A DNA stretch of 64,000 nucleotides from Candidatus Phaeomarinobacter ectocarpi (lineage in GTDB: Bacteria > Pseudomonadota > Alphaproteobacteria > CGMCC-115125), in the NCBI RefSeq assembly GCF_000689395.1, contig NZ_HG966617.1, forward strand, positions 2,702,721-2,766,720, given 5' to 3'. The stretch's first letter is position 1. Each line of letters begins with the position of its first letter. Shown piece after piece: positions 3,141-28,069 of the stretch. Under the pieces are notes generated by a model, which was not told the origin of the DNA, ran no database searches, and saw only the letters and a program-made list of their open reading frames with translations. The translations under genes and the position numbers were made by a program.

Positions 3141-4988
3141 CTAGTTGAGCGGCAGTGAGAACGTACCGCCGACTGACCAACCGTCTACATCCGCTCCGAT
3201 ACCAAAAACGCTGGTGTAAACGTCAAGCGATGCTCCACCCTCTGTGGTCACGGAGAGCTGCGGCGTCACAGCGAGGCTGAAATAGTCGTCATCACTCGTT
3301 GCCACATTGCCAGACTGACTGTCCCTGTTGGTCCAGTTGTAGTTTGCCGTAGCGCCAAGAGCAGGCTCGATCACAGTGAAGATGCCTTCATTCTCAATCG
3401 TCGTCCCGATCGTTGGACCGTGTGAAACACGACCGGACCACAAATCATTGTCACCAATGCGCGTGCCGACCGAGTTTGTGTAGCCATCACGATGCGACCA
3501 CGTGGACGAGAATGACGTCGAATGCTGGACCCAGATGCCATTGGACCAGTCGTCTCTGCCGGACACGCCCAGAGTCAGATCAATGAGATTTGAGTCATAG
3601 GAGCCCGTCGTGTTGGCAACAGAAATATCGCTATCAGAAATGCCGTAGCGAACAGTTGCCTTTAGAGCCAGCCCGTCAATCTTGTAGCGACCAAACACAC
3701 CCAGCGAATAACCGCGCGTATCAATATCAAGGTTGTTGAGCGGTGCCTTCACATCCGACCATTTGGTGGTGACAAATGTGCCAAGCCGGATGTCCTCCCA
3801 GAAGTCATGGTGAACACCCACGGCCGCAACCACGGTGTCGCCCTTCTGCTGGGTGGCATCTCCCTGTTTGTAACGGGTAAACGACGCACGCACCCAGGCG
3901 ACCGTCTTTTTAGTCAGCGTGCGGTCAAACGACAATTCCTGAACATCAGGCGCCCCGTTTGGCTCATCGAAGTGCCTGACAATGTCCTGAAACTCACGCT
4001 CGAACCGGTCAGCGGAGGCATTGGCAACAAACGGAATAGGTGCAGATGGGCTCCTATCCAGCAAAATGGCATTCTCCAGAGTCCTTTTTTCCTTAAGCAG
4101 TTCGCCCAGCTCAGTAACCGCTTGTGCGCGTTCGCCAGAGACTTTGAGCTCGCCCTCTTCGATCATCTCAAGACGTCGCTCATAGGCACCCTCGTTGCGA
4201 GCTTTCACAGGGTCAAAACCGGGAACAAAAATCTCCGCAAGGATTTCAGCTCCTGATTTGCTGGTCTTGTCTTCCGTCGCCTCCCTGGCATTGTCTCTCG
4301 CCTCTGCGAGCTCTTCGAGGCTCTGATCCGCCTGCTGGATTGCTGCGCCCAGTTCTGCTTCACGTTCCTCAATTTCCTTCAGACGGTCAGAGATATCAGC
4401 GCGTTCCTGATCTGAAAGGCCAAGACCCAGACCTTCATTCGGATCGAGATCAAAGCCCTCTTCCAGCAATTGACGAGCTGCTTCTTCTTCAAGCGCTGCT
4501 GACGCGGCATCGGCATTGTCTACCGTTTGCTCGATATCCGTTTGCGACGCGCCATCTGTTCCGTCCGCTCCAGCACCGGACACACACGTAAAGAGAAGGC
4601 TGGCCCCACCGCCGCCACCTGCATTCAACGCGCCGTTGATGGTGAACGTGCCCGTCGAGGGAATGGTGAAGCTGCCCGAGCCCGTGGCGCCATTGATGAA
4701 GATCAGCAGGTTGTTGCCAGGGTTCACATCCACAGCGACAGACAGGACAATGCCGGTCACCGTCGCCGTGATGACGTCACCGACAAAGAAAGTGCCGCTT
4801 TGATTGATGTTGGCCGCGCCGCCAGCCGCAGCCGTGCGGTTGAAGCCCGAGACATTGCCGCCATTGCACGACGACGCCGACTGCGCCGCCGCAGGTGTCG
4901 CGCTCCCAGTCACAAGTGCGGCCCCAAAAACAGCCGCCATACCAAGACCGGCGACGCTGCCCACCGCCGCTTGAAAACCCGTTTTCAT
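3141..4988 (-). CDS. Autotransporter-type protein with coiled coil and C-terminal beta barrel
   Basis: 615 aa from ATG at 4988, chosen because GGGAGC lies upstream and the signal peptide (MKTGFQ...ATPAAAQ) begins there. After the signal comes a ~120-aa Gly/Asn/Thr-rich beta-type passenger with two Cys. Next is a ~200-aa strongly charged Glu/Ala/Arg-rich helical region (coiled coil, roughly residues 140-320). The C-terminal ~270 aa consist of alternating amphipathic strands typical of the autotransporter beta domain. It ends in LPLN rather than the usual aromatic Phe. The passenger is short, so this may be a surface stalk rather than a secreted enzyme. Divergent from the LuxR-esterase fusion with 74 bp between the start codons. 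Confidence 0.75.
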   Translation of the reverse strand: MKTGFQAAVGSVAGLGMAAVFGAALVTGSATPAAAQSASSCNGGNVSGFNRTAAAGGAANINQSGTFFVGDVITATVTGIVLSVAVDVNPGNNLLIFINGATGSGSFTIPSTGTFTINGALNAGGGGGASLLFTCVSGAGADGTDGASQTDIEQTVDNADAASAALEEEAARQLLEEGFDLDPNEGLGLGLSDQERADISDRLKEIEEREAELGAAIQQADQSLEELAEARDNAREATEDKTSKSGAEILAEIFVPGFDPVKARNEGAYERRLEMIEEGELKVSGERAQAVTELGELLKEKRTLENAILLDRSPSAPIPFVANASADRFEREFQDIVRHFDEPNGAPDVQELSFDRTLTKKTVAWVRASFTRYKQGDATQQKGDTVVAAVGVHHDFWEDIRLGTFVTTKWSDVKAPLNNLDIDTRGYSLGVFGRYKIDGLALKATVRYGISDSDISVANTTGSYDSNLIDLTLGVSGRDDWSNGIWVQHSTSFSSTWSHRDGYTNSVGTRIGDNDLWSGRVSHGPTIGTTIENEGIFTVIEPALGATANYNWTNRDSQSGNVATSDDDYFSLAVTPQLSVTTEGGASLDVYTSVFGIGADVDGWSVGGTFSLPLN

Positions 4989-5062
4989 GCTTATTTGCTC
5001 CCAACCCCGAATTTCTTTCCTCCAAGGCATAACGAAGGCTTGATCGCGCCACATCATCAAAA

Positions 5063-6730
5063 GTGATGACTCTCGAGGCTAAATCTGGCCTAAAAGGGCG
5101 GTTACTTGGGGGCGGTGCGCGAATGCAACAGGCATCAGGGTTGGACAATCTGGGGGCTGAGGTCACACCGGCGACGGGACTTCCTGTCACCGGCGTTTGG
5201 ATCGCCCAGCCGGACACGAGGGCTGACGCCCGTATCGTTCTGTATGTGTATGGCGGCACATTTTCGCTCAATCGCGGGCCCATGCAGGAGATCGTCGCTT
5301 GTCGCATTGCCACCCATGCCCGGGCCCGTGTCCTGCTGTTTGACTACTCTCTGGCGCCCGAACAGCCCTTCCCCCTTGCCATTGAGGACGTGACAGCCAC
5401 CTATCTGTCCCTGCTTGAACAGGGCCACGACCCGTCAAAAATCGTCGTGATGGGAGATACGTCCGGCGCCGGCATTGCGCTGGCTGCGCTCATCTCCCTG
5501 CGCGATCAGCAGCACCCCATGCCGGCCGGCTTTGTGGCCCTCACCCCACTGGCGGATCTGACTTTCTCCGGCGGCAGCTATGTCAGCAATATCCGCAGCA
5601 ACGGGTCCACGTCAGACGTGGAACTGATCATGACCCTGGCCTTCGACTATCTGCAGGGTGCCGATCCGCGCCATCCGCTGGCCTCACCGGTTCTGGCGGA
5701 CCTTGCAGGCATGCCCGAGATTGAAATCCACGCCGACGTCAAAGACGTGCTCTACGACGACGCCATCATGCTGGCTGAAAAACTGCGCAGCACCGGCGGC
5801 AAGGTAAATCTCTATGAATGGGACGGGCTAGCCGACACGTGGCAGCGCCTTGCGCCCCTCTCCACCCAGAGCACCGCCGCTCTTGCCCGCATCGGGCAGT
5901 TCGTCCGTAAACAGACGGGCAGCCAGGCACCCGCAGGCAAGGCCGACGCTGACAATCTCATCACGTCTTACCAAGGCCTCATCAAGGAATTTGTGCAGCC
6001 TCACACGCGCGAACGTGTGGACGAGATTTTTGAATGGTCCCGGGCCCACGGTCCTGAATGGGTCTGGCCTTTCATTCAGCGCCGCTTGAAACACGGCGCG
6101 CTGGTGACCCAGGATCAGGTGGAGCGCGACTGGCTGACCATGCTGTTCACCGAAGCATCTGACGGCATGCTTCTGCTCAGCGCCAGCCGGCATATCCTTC
6201 TGTCCAACAGGCGCGCCCGCGATCGCCTGGAAACCGAAACGCCGATCCTCCTCAAGAATGGCCGGCTCTTTGGCACAACCGAGGCGGACGACGAGGCCTT
6301 GCAGACCGCACTTGATGCGCTTTTTCAGGCCTCCCCCAGTCACATTCACCGGGCCGTGCGCCTTGAAGGCGTGAAGGGCAAGCGTGGCCATACAGGCCCG
6401 ACACTCCTGCGCGGCGAACGCCTCCAGCAGGAAAGCGAAGGCCGCGGCGTCCCACCGGTGGTCCTGCTGAGATTGCTCACACCGCCCGACACAGCAGACA
6501 TCGACGAGACAGCACTGGTCACCTGGTACGGCCTGTCAAAAAAGGAAGCAAAGCTCGCTGCCGCCTTTGCGACCGGCGTCAGCCTTGCGGGCTTTGCAAA
6601 AGACAATGACGTGTCGATCACCACCGTCCGCACCCAGTTTGCCAATCTGAAGGCCAAACTGGGCGCCAGTGACCAGGCTGCTGTGGTGCGGCAGGTGTTG
6701 CAGGCGGCCACCCACACTTCGTTTCCGTAA
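5063..6730 (+). CDS. LuxR-type regulator fused to a degenerate HSL-family alpha/beta hydrolase
   Basis: 555 aa in three parts. Residues ~55-285 are an alpha/beta hydrolase of the hormone-sensitive-lipase group (LFDYSLAPEQPFPLA, the GD-x-S-G elbow region). The oxyanion motif HGGG is YGGT (63-66), the elbow GDSAG is GDTSG (131-135, nucleophile Ser to Thr), the acid Asp is kept (about 228) and the catalytic His is absent (WDGLADTW, 253-260). Residues ~350-450 resemble a PAS-like sensor (GMLLLSASRHILLSNRRA). Residues 487-548 are a LuxR/GerE helix-turn-helix (LSKKEAKLAAAF, VSITTVRTQFANLKAKLGA). It probably binds a small hydrophobic ligand and controls transcription. The start could be GTG 5063, ATG 5066, or ATG 5123. 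Confidence 0.85.
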   Translation: MMTLEAKSGLKGRLLGGGARMQQASGLDNLGAEVTPATGLPVTGVWIAQPDTRADARIVLYVYGGTFSLNRGPMQEIVACRIATHARARVLLFDYSLAPEQPFPLAIEDVTATYLSLLEQGHDPSKIVVMGDTSGAGIALAALISLRDQQHPMPAGFVALTPLADLTFSGGSYVSNIRSNGSTSDVELIMTLAFDYLQGADPRHPLASPVLADLAGMPEIEIHADVKDVLYDDAIMLAEKLRSTGGKVNLYEWDGLADTWQRLAPLSTQSTAALARIGQFVRKQTGSQAPAGKADADNLITSYQGLIKEFVQPHTRERVDEIFEWSRAHGPEWVWPFIQRRLKHGALVTQDQVERDWLTMLFTEASDGMLLLSASRHILLSNRRARDRLETETPILLKNGRLFGTTEADDEALQTALDALFQASPSHIHRAVRLEGVKGKRGHTGPTLLRGERLQQESEGRGVPPVVLLRLLTPPDTADIDETALVTWYGLSKKEAKLAAAFATGVSLAGFAKDNDVSITTVRTQFANLKAKLGASDQAAVVRQVLQAATHTSFP

Positions 6731-19863: not shown

Positions 19864-20769
19864 TTATTCAGCCGCCGCAGCCCGACCTTCAGCGGCAGAG
19901 CAGTGGGCGCTGATTTCGTCAATCAGCTGTGGCTGCACTTCCTTGGGCAGGTCATGACCCCAGCCTGCGATTTCCACGAGCTTGGAACCCGGAATGTTCG
20001 CTGCCGTGTCCCGGCCACCTTCAACCCGCACGAGCGGATCATCAGTGCCGTGCAGCACCAGAACCGGGCAGGTGATCTTCTTCAGACGCTCGCGCCGGTC
20101 TCCATCGGCAATGATCGCCGCGTACTGACGGGTCGTGCCTTCAGGATAGTAAGCCCGGTCAAAGGTCTCGCCGGCCCGTGCGCGGGCTTCATCATCGGGC
20201 GTTGGAAACCCGGGAGAGCCGATCGCCGCCCGCACACCCATGGAGTGCTTGATGACCGTTTCGCGCTCTTCATTGGCAGGACGCGACAGCAGCGCTGCCA
20301 TGGCGGCATCCGTTGCCGGAGGCACTTCCTGATTGCCGGTGGTCGAGAAGATCGACGTCATGGATTTGAACCGGTCCGGCCATTCAGCCGCGGCCAGCTG
20401 GACGATCATACCGCCCATGGACCCACCAACAATGTGCGCCTTGTCGATGCCCAGCGTATCCAGCACGCCCACCGCATCAGCAGCCATGTCCGTCAGCGTG
20501 TAAGGAACCTCCGGCGTCTCACCTGAGAGCACCTTGCCCATCACTTCGCCCGCATCCGGCGTGCCAAGTTCCGGGAACTTCTGCGACAGGCCGACGTCGC
20601 GATTATCAAACCGCACCACATGGAACCCACGGTCGACCAGCGCGTTCATCATTTCCGGTGGCCAGTTGATGAGCTGCGCCCCGAAGCCCATCACGAAAAT
20701 GATGGTGGGGTTGGCCTTGTCGCCAAATGTCTCGACTTCGATGTCGATGCCGTTTGCCTTGATCTGCAT
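19864..20769 (-). CDS. Alpha/beta hydrolase (tandem copy 1)
   Basis: 301 aa alpha/beta hydrolase. Oxyanion region VMGFGAQLINWP, early RFDNRDVGLS, nucleophile elbow GGSMGG near residue 114, acid in HGTDDPLV and His in GWGHDLPKE. The family contains esterases, lactonases and haloperoxidase-like enzymes with no fixed substrate. GGGAGG precedes ATG 20769. It is the downstream member of a tandem pair with the gene at 20812; both share the same layout (KANG start, NRDVGLS, TSIFSTTGN or SIMSTTGN) and end in an Ala/Glu tail (AAAE). Confidence 0.87.
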   Translation of the reverse strand: MQIKANGIDIEVETFGDKANPTIIFVMGFGAQLINWPPEMMNALVDRGFHVVRFDNRDVGLSQKFPELGTPDAGEVMGKVLSGETPEVPYTLTDMAADAVGVLDTLGIDKAHIVGGSMGGMIVQLAAAEWPDRFKSMTSIFSTTGNQEVPPATDAAMAALLSRPANEERETVIKHSMGVRAAIGSPGFPTPDDEARARAGETFDRAYYPEGTTRQYAAIIADGDRRERLKKITCPVLVLHGTDDPLVRVEGGRDTAANIPGSKLVEIAGWGHDLPKEVQPQLIDEISAHCSAAEGRAAAAE

Positions 20770-20811
20770 GTGTCGCCTCCCAGCGATGTTCGTGTGTTGT
20801 TGTCTTGAAAA

Positions 20812-21720
20812 TTACTCAGCCGCCGCGCGCCCGGCTTCAACCTCGCGCACAAATCCGCCGACCTTGTCGAGATAGACCGGCACCAGCGCTTCGGTGAAGT
20901 CGTGGCCCATGCCCTCTACGATTTCCAGCCGTGCGCCGGGAATGGCGTCAGCCGTGTCCTTGCCACCTTCAACCGGCACTAGCGGGTCATCCGCCCCGTG
21001 CAGCACCATGGTTGGCGCGGTGATTTTTGCCAGCGCCTCATTGCGGGCAGGCGCTGCCAGAATGGCCAGCACCTGGCGGCCAAAGCCCTCCGGGCAGACC
21101 ATGCGGTCAACGCTTGCCGCTGCAACGGCACGCAGTTCTTCATCCGTACCCGGATATTTCGGGCTGCCGATCACCTTCCACATATCCACGCCCTGCTGGA
21201 TCATGCCTTCGCGACTGGTATCAGCCGGCGGTGTCAGCAGTGCAGCCATGGCTTCAGGCTTGGCAGGGGGAACATCCGGATTGCCGGTCGTGGACATGAT
21301 GGAGACCATGCTCTTCACTTTGGCAGGATGACGCGTCGCCACCAGCTGCGCGATCATGCCGCCCATGGAGGCACCCACCACATGGGCTGTCTCGATACCC
21401 AGCGCATCCATCAGGCCTGCAGCGTCATCTGCCATATCATCCAGTGAGTAAGGAGACGTCACCGGCTGGCCGGTCAACTGCGCGGTCACAGCGGCCATGA
21501 TGTCCGGTTCACCGGCCTCTTCAATTTTGCTGGAGAGGCCAACGTCGCGGTTGTCATAGCGAATGACGTAAAAGCCCAGATCAGCCAGACCATTGCAGAA
21601 ACTCTCCGGCCACATCACCAGCTGGCAGCCCACACCCATGATGAGCAGAAGCGGCGGATTGGCTTTGTCTCCGAAGGTCTCATATTCAAAGGACAGCCCA
21701 TTGGCTTTGGCCTGAGGCAT
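20812..21720 (-). CDS. Alpha/beta hydrolase (tandem copy 2)
   Basis: 302 aa from ATG 21720 (CGGGAGA upstream; longer in-frame starts lack one). Nucleophile elbow GASMGG, RYDNRDVGLS, HGADDPLVPVEGG and GMGHDF give a full Ser-Asp-His triad. Clearly paralogous to the adjacent gene at 19864, 42 bases downstream, so they are an operon born of tandem duplication. Preserved catalytic residues in both suggest divided substrate ranges rather than decay. Divergent from the HCCA-isomerase-like gene; the 172 bases between hold both promoters. Confidence 0.87.
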   Translation of the reverse strand: MPQAKANGLSFEYETFGDKANPPLLLIMGVGCQLVMWPESFCNGLADLGFYVIRYDNRDVGLSSKIEEAGEPDIMAAVTAQLTGQPVTSPYSLDDMADDAAGLMDALGIETAHVVGASMGGMIAQLVATRHPAKVKSMVSIMSTTGNPDVPPAKPEAMAALLTPPADTSREGMIQQGVDMWKVIGSPKYPGTDEELRAVAAASVDRMVCPEGFGRQVLAILAAPARNEALAKITAPTMVLHGADDPLVPVEGGKDTADAIPGARLEIVEGMGHDFTEALVPVYLDKVGGFVREVEAGRAAAE

Positions 21721-21892
21721 CACGTTTCTCCCGGTTTCGTCGTTGTTCTGATGTTTTGTCAGCCGGGAGCCTAGCAACTCATCTGGCGCGTTGAAAGCAT
21801 TAGGCAAATCCGACCGAATACGTCCGATTTTGCTTGGGGTCGCCTGCTCCCGCGCGGTAGCGTGCGCCCAACATACGCAAAGGAATCCAACG

Positions 21893-27118: not shown

Positions 27119-28069
27119 TTAATGCGCCAGCGCCGCCGCCAGCTTGTCCGCCGCGACCTTCACCGCTTCCTTCGATACATCAAGGACACCTTGCATGTTG
27201 AAGAAACCGTGGATCATGCCCGGATAGTCAACGTATTCAGCCTTGGTGCCCGCCGCATTGAGCGCATCCGCATAGGCCTTGCCTTCATCCCGCAGAGGAT
27301 CAAACCCGGCGGTAATCACATAGGCCGGTGGCAACCCGGAAAGATCATCGGCACTGAGGGGGGAGGCAAACGGCTCGGAGCGCGCCGCATCATTGCCGCC
27401 CATGTAATTACCTTCAAACCAGCGCATGGTTTCCTTTTCAAGGAAGTAGCCTTCGGCAAATTCCGTGCGTGATCCCCACTGGTCGGCGTCTGTAAAGTCG
27501 GTGGTGGGATAGATCAGCATCTGAAACGCGATCTGCGGGCCCTTCTTGGCTTTCGCCATCAGGCATACAACAGCGGCAAGGTTGCCGCCCGCACTGTCCC
27601 CGGCTACCGCAATGGAGTTGGGGTCGATGCCAAGCGTTCCCGCATTGGCTTCCACCCATTTGGTCGCCGCGTAGCAGTCATCCGCTGCTGCCGGATACAC
27701 GTGCTCCGGCGCCAGCCGGTAATCCACCGCCACAACGCGCACGCCTGCTTCGTTGGCGAGTGTCCGGCACAGGGCATCGTGGGTCACAAGATTGCCGATC
27801 ACAAAACCACCGCCGTGAAAGAACACAAGGCACGGCAGCGACGAGCTGCCACCGGCAACCGGCGTATAAACGCGCGCGGGAATGTCGCCCGCAGGGCCGG
27901 GAATGGAAATGTCTTCCGTCTTGCCGATGGGTGCGTCCGGCAGATCCAATACCGCTGCCATGCCTTCATACGTGGCACGCGCATCATCCAGCGGCAAATC
28001 CCACAACTTTGGTGCCGGGTTTTCGGCAAGCTGGGCGAGCATCGCCTCCACCTGGGGATCAAGTGACAT
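27119..28069 (-). CDS. Alpha/beta hydrolase, hormone-sensitive-lipase-type esterase
   Basis: 316 aa with a complete HSL (type IV) active site: oxyanion HGGG at 85-88, nucleophile Ser159 in GDSAGG, Asp257 in FDPLRDEG, His287 in MIHGF. DYRLAPEHVYPAA is the family consensus. It probably hydrolyses short to medium acyl esters in the cytoplasm. GAGGAAAC precedes ATG. It provides a useful in-window intact comparison for the degenerate copy in the LuxR fusion at 5063. It heads a minus-strand block but is separated from the DUF924 gene by 43 bases. Confidence 0.93.
   Translation of the reverse strand: MSLDPQVEAMLAQLAENPAPKLWDLPLDDARATYEGMAAVLDLPDAPIGKTEDISIPGPAGDIPARVYTPVAGGSSSLPCLVFFHGGGFVIGNLVTHDALCRTLANEAGVRVVAVDYRLAPEHVYPAAADDCYAATKWVEANAGTLGIDPNSIAVAGDSAGGNLAAVVCLMAKAKKGPQIAFQMLIYPTTDFTDADQWGSRTEFAEGYFLEKETMRWFEGNYMGGNDAARSEPFASPLSADDLSGLPPAYVITAGFDPLRDEGKAYADALNAAGTKAEYVDYPGMIHGFFNMQGVLDVSKEAVKVAADKLAAALAH

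Follow-up and report, generated by a model that had tools for sequence, protein, structure and literature searches.

In plants, an HSL-type esterase has been turned into a hormone receptor, and in bacteria several enzymes have become the sensors of transcription factors. The plant gibberellin receptor GID1 keeps the catalytic Ser and Asp of the HSL fold and loses only the His (PMC3531792, PMC9663428), which is replaced by Val or Ile; a lid covers its pocket, and its output runs through DELLA and SCF. In the bacterial MocR/GabR regulators, a GntR helix-turn-helix (HTH) is joined to an inactive aminotransferase fold, an inactive enzyme fold thus giving a DNA-binding protein its sensor (PMC8739950). 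A LuxR regulator with an HSL fold was not found in the literature that we searched: the open-licence literature yielded no description of a regulator combining an HSL or other alpha/beta-hydrolase domain with a LuxR HTH. The three-part architecture, proposed in the initial annotation of the locus presented here, is not known to have been described.

This locus lies in a 64,000-nucleotide stretch of Candidatus Phaeomarinobacter ectocarpi (contig NZ_HG966617.1, positions 2,702,721 to 2,766,720 of the forward strand; hereafter the window), and its product belongs to a regulator family that is real, narrowly distributed, and apparently derived from an enzyme.

Results

Gene Model and Domain Order

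The initial annotation had placed the gene at 5063–6730 on the plus strand. The open reading frame itself stands, but its start does not: the other Phaeomarinobacter copies begin with MQQASGLDNLG or MTQAGGLDNLG, at an ATG matching position 5123 of the window, and a conserved palindrome (5054–5069) overlaps position 5063, so that the likely gene is 5123–6730. From its N-terminus, the protein comprises an HSL fold, a conserved linker, a PAS-like stretch, and a LuxR HTH. A model of the full-length protein was of low quality (pLDDT 50). The features discussed below are the following:

3141–4988, minus strand: autotransporter gene, divergent from the regulator and its probable target (likely start 4988; PF03797, E = 1.1e-17)
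5054–5069, no strand: palindromic putative operator TCATCAAAAGTGATGA between the divergent genes, its pattern present in 26/26 upstream regions
5123–6730, plus strand: LuxR regulator with a pseudo-esterase domain (535 aa), probably starting at ATG 5123; congeners begin at the equivalent ATG
5159–5917, plus strand: HSL-fold domain, catalytically degenerate, residues 13–265 (Pfam, EstD11 alignment, AF2 model, Foldseek and VIA matches)
5249–5260, plus strand: former oxyanion motif, HGGG to YGGT, residues 43–46 (YGGT in 21/22 fused homologues, YVGT in one)
5453–5467, plus strand: former nucleophile elbow, GDSAG to GDTSG, residues 111–115 (Thr113 in place of Ser; Thr in 22/22 fused homologues)
5744–5746, plus strand: catalytic-acid position, Asp208, kept (Asp or Glu in 22/22 fused homologues)
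5834–5836, plus strand: former catalytic His, now Asp238, aligned with the His of EstD11 (Asp, Glu, or Ser in 22/22)
5969–6136, plus strand: conserved linker, residues 283–338, QPH..R...W..GP.WVWPF..RL..G..VTQ, the strongest constraint in the protein
6140–6496, plus strand: PAS-like stretch, residues 340–458 (profile match to the middle part of other LuxR regulators)
6524–6712, plus strand: LuxR-type HTH, residues 468–530 (GerE in 10/10 relatives)

An HSL Fold with an Altered Active Site

The proposal that the N-terminal half is built on an HSL-type esterase is borne out by Pfam (Abhydrolase_3, E = 1.7e-39), by alignment with EstD11 (E = 2e-53), and by the predicted structure. Modeled alone with AF2 from seven sequences, the HSL domain reached a pLDDT of 80.5 and a pTM of 0.84, and the best solved matches to this model were EstD11, EstE5, and E40, with Z scores of about 34 over 260 residues. 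EstD11 came first (VIA Z 34.8, 260 residues, 2.2 A). A His-to-Asp mutant of Est1 was among the structure matches, and no report on that mutant was found in open-licence papers. The model could be aligned only from residue 36 of EstD11 on, which indicates that the N-terminal part of the cap (EstD11 residues 1–35) is missing in the regulator.

The EstD11 alignment likewise confirmed every change that had been read in the active site, namely YGGT for HGGG, GDTSG for GDSAG, and the disappearance of the His, together with the retention of the Asp and of the LAPE core (residues 77–80, intact in the window copy). Measured against the hallmarks of HSL (family IV) esterases, the homologues in which the HSL domain and the HTH are fused have the fold and the acid position and lack the HGG, the nucleophilic Ser, and the catalytic His. 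The oxyanion His is a Tyr in all 22 of them, in which Y43, T46, D112, T113, and T239 are invariant.

The esterase at 27119, to which the regulator had been compared as the intact copy, proved to be a distant relative only (LipP1 family, 23% identity), closer intact relatives being located elsewhere. Two neighboring alpha/beta-hydrolase-like genes, similar to each other and belonging to another subfamily, are also found at 19864–21807 of the window. Among stand-alone HSL proteins, those at loci L115, L118, and L122 display the nucleophile motifs GDASGA, GDGSGG, and GDDAGG, respectively, and may be further natural pseudo-esterases.

Linker, PAS-like Stretch, and HTH

After the HSL domain comes a linker of some 55 residues, the core of which hardly varies. 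The stretch beyond it had been called PAS-like, a designation that holds as a profile likeness to the middle region of LuxR regulators of the same class but not as a Pfam call, since the scan of 10 members did not recognize PAS (one of the 10 at E = 0.21). Taken together, the PAS-like stretch and the HTH match ordinary LuxR regulators of the class in profile comparisons. The LuxR HTH is upheld by the GerE matches of all 10 scanned relatives (best E = 3.4e-8), the HTH of the window copy itself falling below the Pfam cut-off (E = 0.003), and weak profile matches to VraR/FixJ-type HTHs were obtained in the PDB. The autoinducer-binding domain of quorum-sensing LuxR proteins was absent from the Pfam matches at E <= 1.

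Conservation and Distribution

According to the initial annotation, homologues with conserved Ser and His would have made this copy a decayed outlier. None of the 22 fused homologues, from Phaeomarinobacter and one other family, keeps these residues, and the HSL domain is under strong purifying selection in Phaeomarinobacter (dN/dS 0.02–0.06, Nei–Gojobori); on both grounds the decayed-outlier reading was rejected. This loss, conserved in 22/22, and the strength of purifying selection indicate at the sequence level that the altered active site is maintained rather than decayed. By the same measure, the linker is at about 0.01 in Phaeomarinobacter and the HTH at 0.03–0.22, and the PAS-like stretch ranges from 0.05 to 0.35 in Phaeomarinobacter. 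The fused copies of genus g243 are less constrained (0.10–0.18 over the whole protein).

Full-length homologues were found in all four available Phaeomarinobacter genomes and, beyond that genus, in a single further family (f10), these two families being the only ones to have them among 385 class-wide genomes. A wide distribution was rejected, as 398 phylum-wide genomes, with about three candidates scored per genome, gave no other full-length match. Viral and plasmid origins were rejected as well, the viral contigs being devoid of any homologue and no plasmid homologue covering 80% of the protein. A homologue with 88% protein identity is present in a metagenome-assembled genome (MAG) labeled “Candidatus Phaeomarinobacter.” Because Parvibaculum was reported to have the sequenced genome nearest to that of Phaeomarinobacter, and the families of both are assigned to one order (PMC4110880, PMC10408702), f10 may be, as a guess, the Parvibaculaceae.

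A Two-Gene Form with an Intact Triad

In f10, close relatives of the HSL domain adjoin a separate small LuxR-HTH gene, and seven such pairs, hereafter called the split form, were collected. No adjacent HTH of this type was found at the other stand-alone HSL loci examined. The HSL proteins of the split form keep the Ser, the acid, and the His, the last oxyanion Gly being a Ser (HSGS or HGGS). Four of the seven pairs (split-A) have the same operator pattern upstream as the fused regulators, TCAYCA-N4-TGRTGA. The other three (split-B; L045, L105, L106) have in common a diverged palindrome, TCATACNNNNGTATGA: each of the three split-B genomes contains a single copy of it, located immediately upstream of the pair, and the window genome contains none. 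Compared with the profile of the fused linker, the split-B HTH proteins matched at their N-terminus (E from 3e-7 to 7e-6), and those of split-A gave no clear match.

Catalytic residues were compared across the 22 fused sequences, the seven split ones, and stand-alone esterases, and the phylogeny of the HSL domain was inferred without the catalytic columns. In this tree, the fused sequences form one clade (support 100/100), the split sequences another (98/90), the two clades are sisters (97/98), and the resulting group is nested among stand-alone esterases that are nearly all catalytically intact. On the basis of these sequences, the simplest history, and most likely the right one, is that an esterase became paired with a LuxR-HTH gene and that fusion and loss of catalysis came afterward. 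The order of pairing and fusion is not fixed by the tree alone; that pairing came first is deduced from the split form, in which the triads are intact.

A Putative Palindromic Operator and the Divergent Surface-Protein Genes

The pattern TCAYCA-N4-TGRTGA is found in all 26 upstream regions considered (22 fused and four split-A), for a chance of about 4e-5 per region in shuffled sequence, many of these regions coming from close relatives and thus not amounting to 26 independent events. It is absent from the scanned stand-alone esterase loci. The window genome holds 13 matches to the pattern, several of which fall within coding sequence and were set aside. Matches lying in a response-regulator gene and in a stand-alone esterase (L004/L067) were set aside as probable chance occurrences, and two other sites (G145:C2:1066784 and G389:C1:1138574) were set aside because they fall within a conserved coding sequence. 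No sigma-70-like promoter that would point to activation or to repression was recognized near the operator.

The head-to-head arrangement of the regulator and the autotransporter gene is shared by three Phaeomarinobacter genomes with five from a different genus (g10, of family f10), the Phaeomarinobacter genome G001 having the regulator with no adjoining autotransporter. The initial annotation had mentioned neither this autotransporter nor the operator. Across g10, this type of autotransporter follows the regulator exactly: all five genomes with the regulator have it, the two without the regulator do not (0/2), and up to three regulator–autotransporter pairs stand in tandem. Within the tandem cassettes L028, L029, and L057 (G012, G145, and G389), the autotransporter beta-domains look by eye much more similar to one another than the passengers do, as though they had been homogenized. 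In g243, the regulator is divergent from an operon whose first gene is of the OmpA type.

Operator-like sites are also present away from the regulator. In the window genome (2534500–2545500, L095), one lies in front of two more autotransporter genes, unlinked to the regulator and flanked by VWA and MoxR genes that are relatives of genes beside the g10 clusters. Another is found in the divergent region between an operon for a secreted VWA protein and an acyl-CoA ligase gene (L094, L097, L098), an arrangement conserved, with its site, in three Phaeomarinobacter species; one protein of the VWA operon has a homologue in the operon beside the g243 regulator (E = 4e-16, 28.6% identity across about 290 residues). 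Finally, G389 has a fourth autotransporter (L057:15201-17018) with its own operator-like site (L057:15117-15132) and no adjoining regulator.

Discussion

Taken as a whole, these observations make it likely that the locus encodes a transcriptional regulator of the one-component kind, in which an HSL-type esterase stripped of its catalytic residues serves as the sensor, and which evolved from an esterase–HTH pair. Its regulatory role is strongly supported by the HTH, by the presence of the conserved putative operator upstream of every copy, and by the divergent surface-protein genes. Under this reading, a dimer of the regulator would bind the palindrome through its HTH and would thereby control its own gene and the surface-protein genes. 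The old enzyme pocket probably senses a small molecule, and thus brings the surface proteins under its control; the ligand could be a small hydrophobic or ester-like compound lodged in the former active site, and the near-invariant linker may relay the ligand-induced change to the HTH. The ancestral state would be a two-gene system made of an intact-triad HSL protein and a small LuxR-HTH protein acting on the same operator, the genes of which would then have fused, with loss of catalysis. By extension, and more tentatively, in the two-gene form the intact-triad HSL protein could act as a receptor or signal-processing partner, its fused relative being a pure receptor without catalysis that drives autotransporters of the cell surface, with as many as three regulator–autotransporter cassettes in tandem in some genomes.

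Alternatively, the HSL domain could be a mere structural or dimerization module, with the signal entering through the PAS-like stretch. This would suit the resemblance of the PAS-like stretch and the HTH to ordinary LuxR regulators, as well as the missing N-terminal part of the cap, owing to which the pocket may be open. Such a role nevertheless seems unlikely to us, since in Phaeomarinobacter the HSL domain and the linker have lower dN/dS than the PAS-like stretch, and since a scaffold would not obviously need the five residues of the old active site that are invariant in all 22 fused homologues. One could also imagine a bifunctional, or trigger, enzyme, in which catalysis would have been retained through Thr113 as a nucleophile or through a different chemistry. 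In a plant relative, 2-hydroxyisoflavanone dehydratase, which has Thr-Ser at the elbow, Thr can indeed stand in for Ser with the His kept, and since that enzyme uses a Thr-Asp-His triad, Thr113 by itself is no proof of inactivity (PMC9663428); moreover, a cyclase has arisen from a carboxylesterase whose original function was lost (PMC10873640), and the split partners of the present family keep their triad. However, the plant enzyme needs its His, the position of which is held here by Asp, Glu, or Ser in 22/22 homologues, the oxyanion His has given way to Tyr, and no single residue substitutes for the catalytic His, which makes retained catalysis improbable.

A further objection concerns the operator, which might belong to another regulator and not be bound by the pseudo-esterase protein at all, as the occurrence of the pattern within coding sequences could suggest. 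Yet, all fused and split-A copies have the palindrome upstream, and the split-B HTH lineage comes with a variant of identical layout, once per genome, such that this objection appears very improbable.

With the family IV esterases EstD11, E40, EstE5, and Est8, the regulator has in common the fold, the LAPE core, and the acid position, at 34–39% identity over about 260 residues; unlike them, it has neither the Ser, the His, and the oxyanion His nor the N-terminal part of the cap, and it is fused to a LuxR HTH. With the LuxR regulators of Alphaproteobacteria that have a PAS-like middle, it shares the PAS-like and HTH part, but neither an autoinducer-binding nor a receiver domain is found in it, and an HSL fold and a conserved linker come first. 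As for MocR/GabR, only the logic is common, the present regulator having a GerE-type HTH and an HSL fold for which no cofactor is expected.

A precedent for the logic had been seen in GID1, which is, as proposed for this regulator, an HSL-fold protein turned into a non-catalytic receptor (PMC3531792, PMC10873640). GID1 is indeed the nearest receptor by fold, but the parallel is a loose one, because GID1 keeps its Ser and Asp whereas the regulator has had its Ser, His, and oxyanion His all changed and the N-terminal part of its cap lost. The output of the regulator also differs, being a fused DNA-binding domain. The initial interpretation of the protein is supported in part: the loss of catalytic residues, conserved in 22/22 homologues that group into a single clade, and the regulatory role bear it out, ligand sensing being its predicted component. 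The coexistence, in related bacteria, of an intact two-gene form, a common operator, and a fused dead form opens the transition from enzyme to receptor to direct tests, with the operator and its targets as a readout for finding the ligand. If this reading were true, esterase-based signaling would here be caught in its evolutionary steps, along a path that plants are thought to have taken with GID1.
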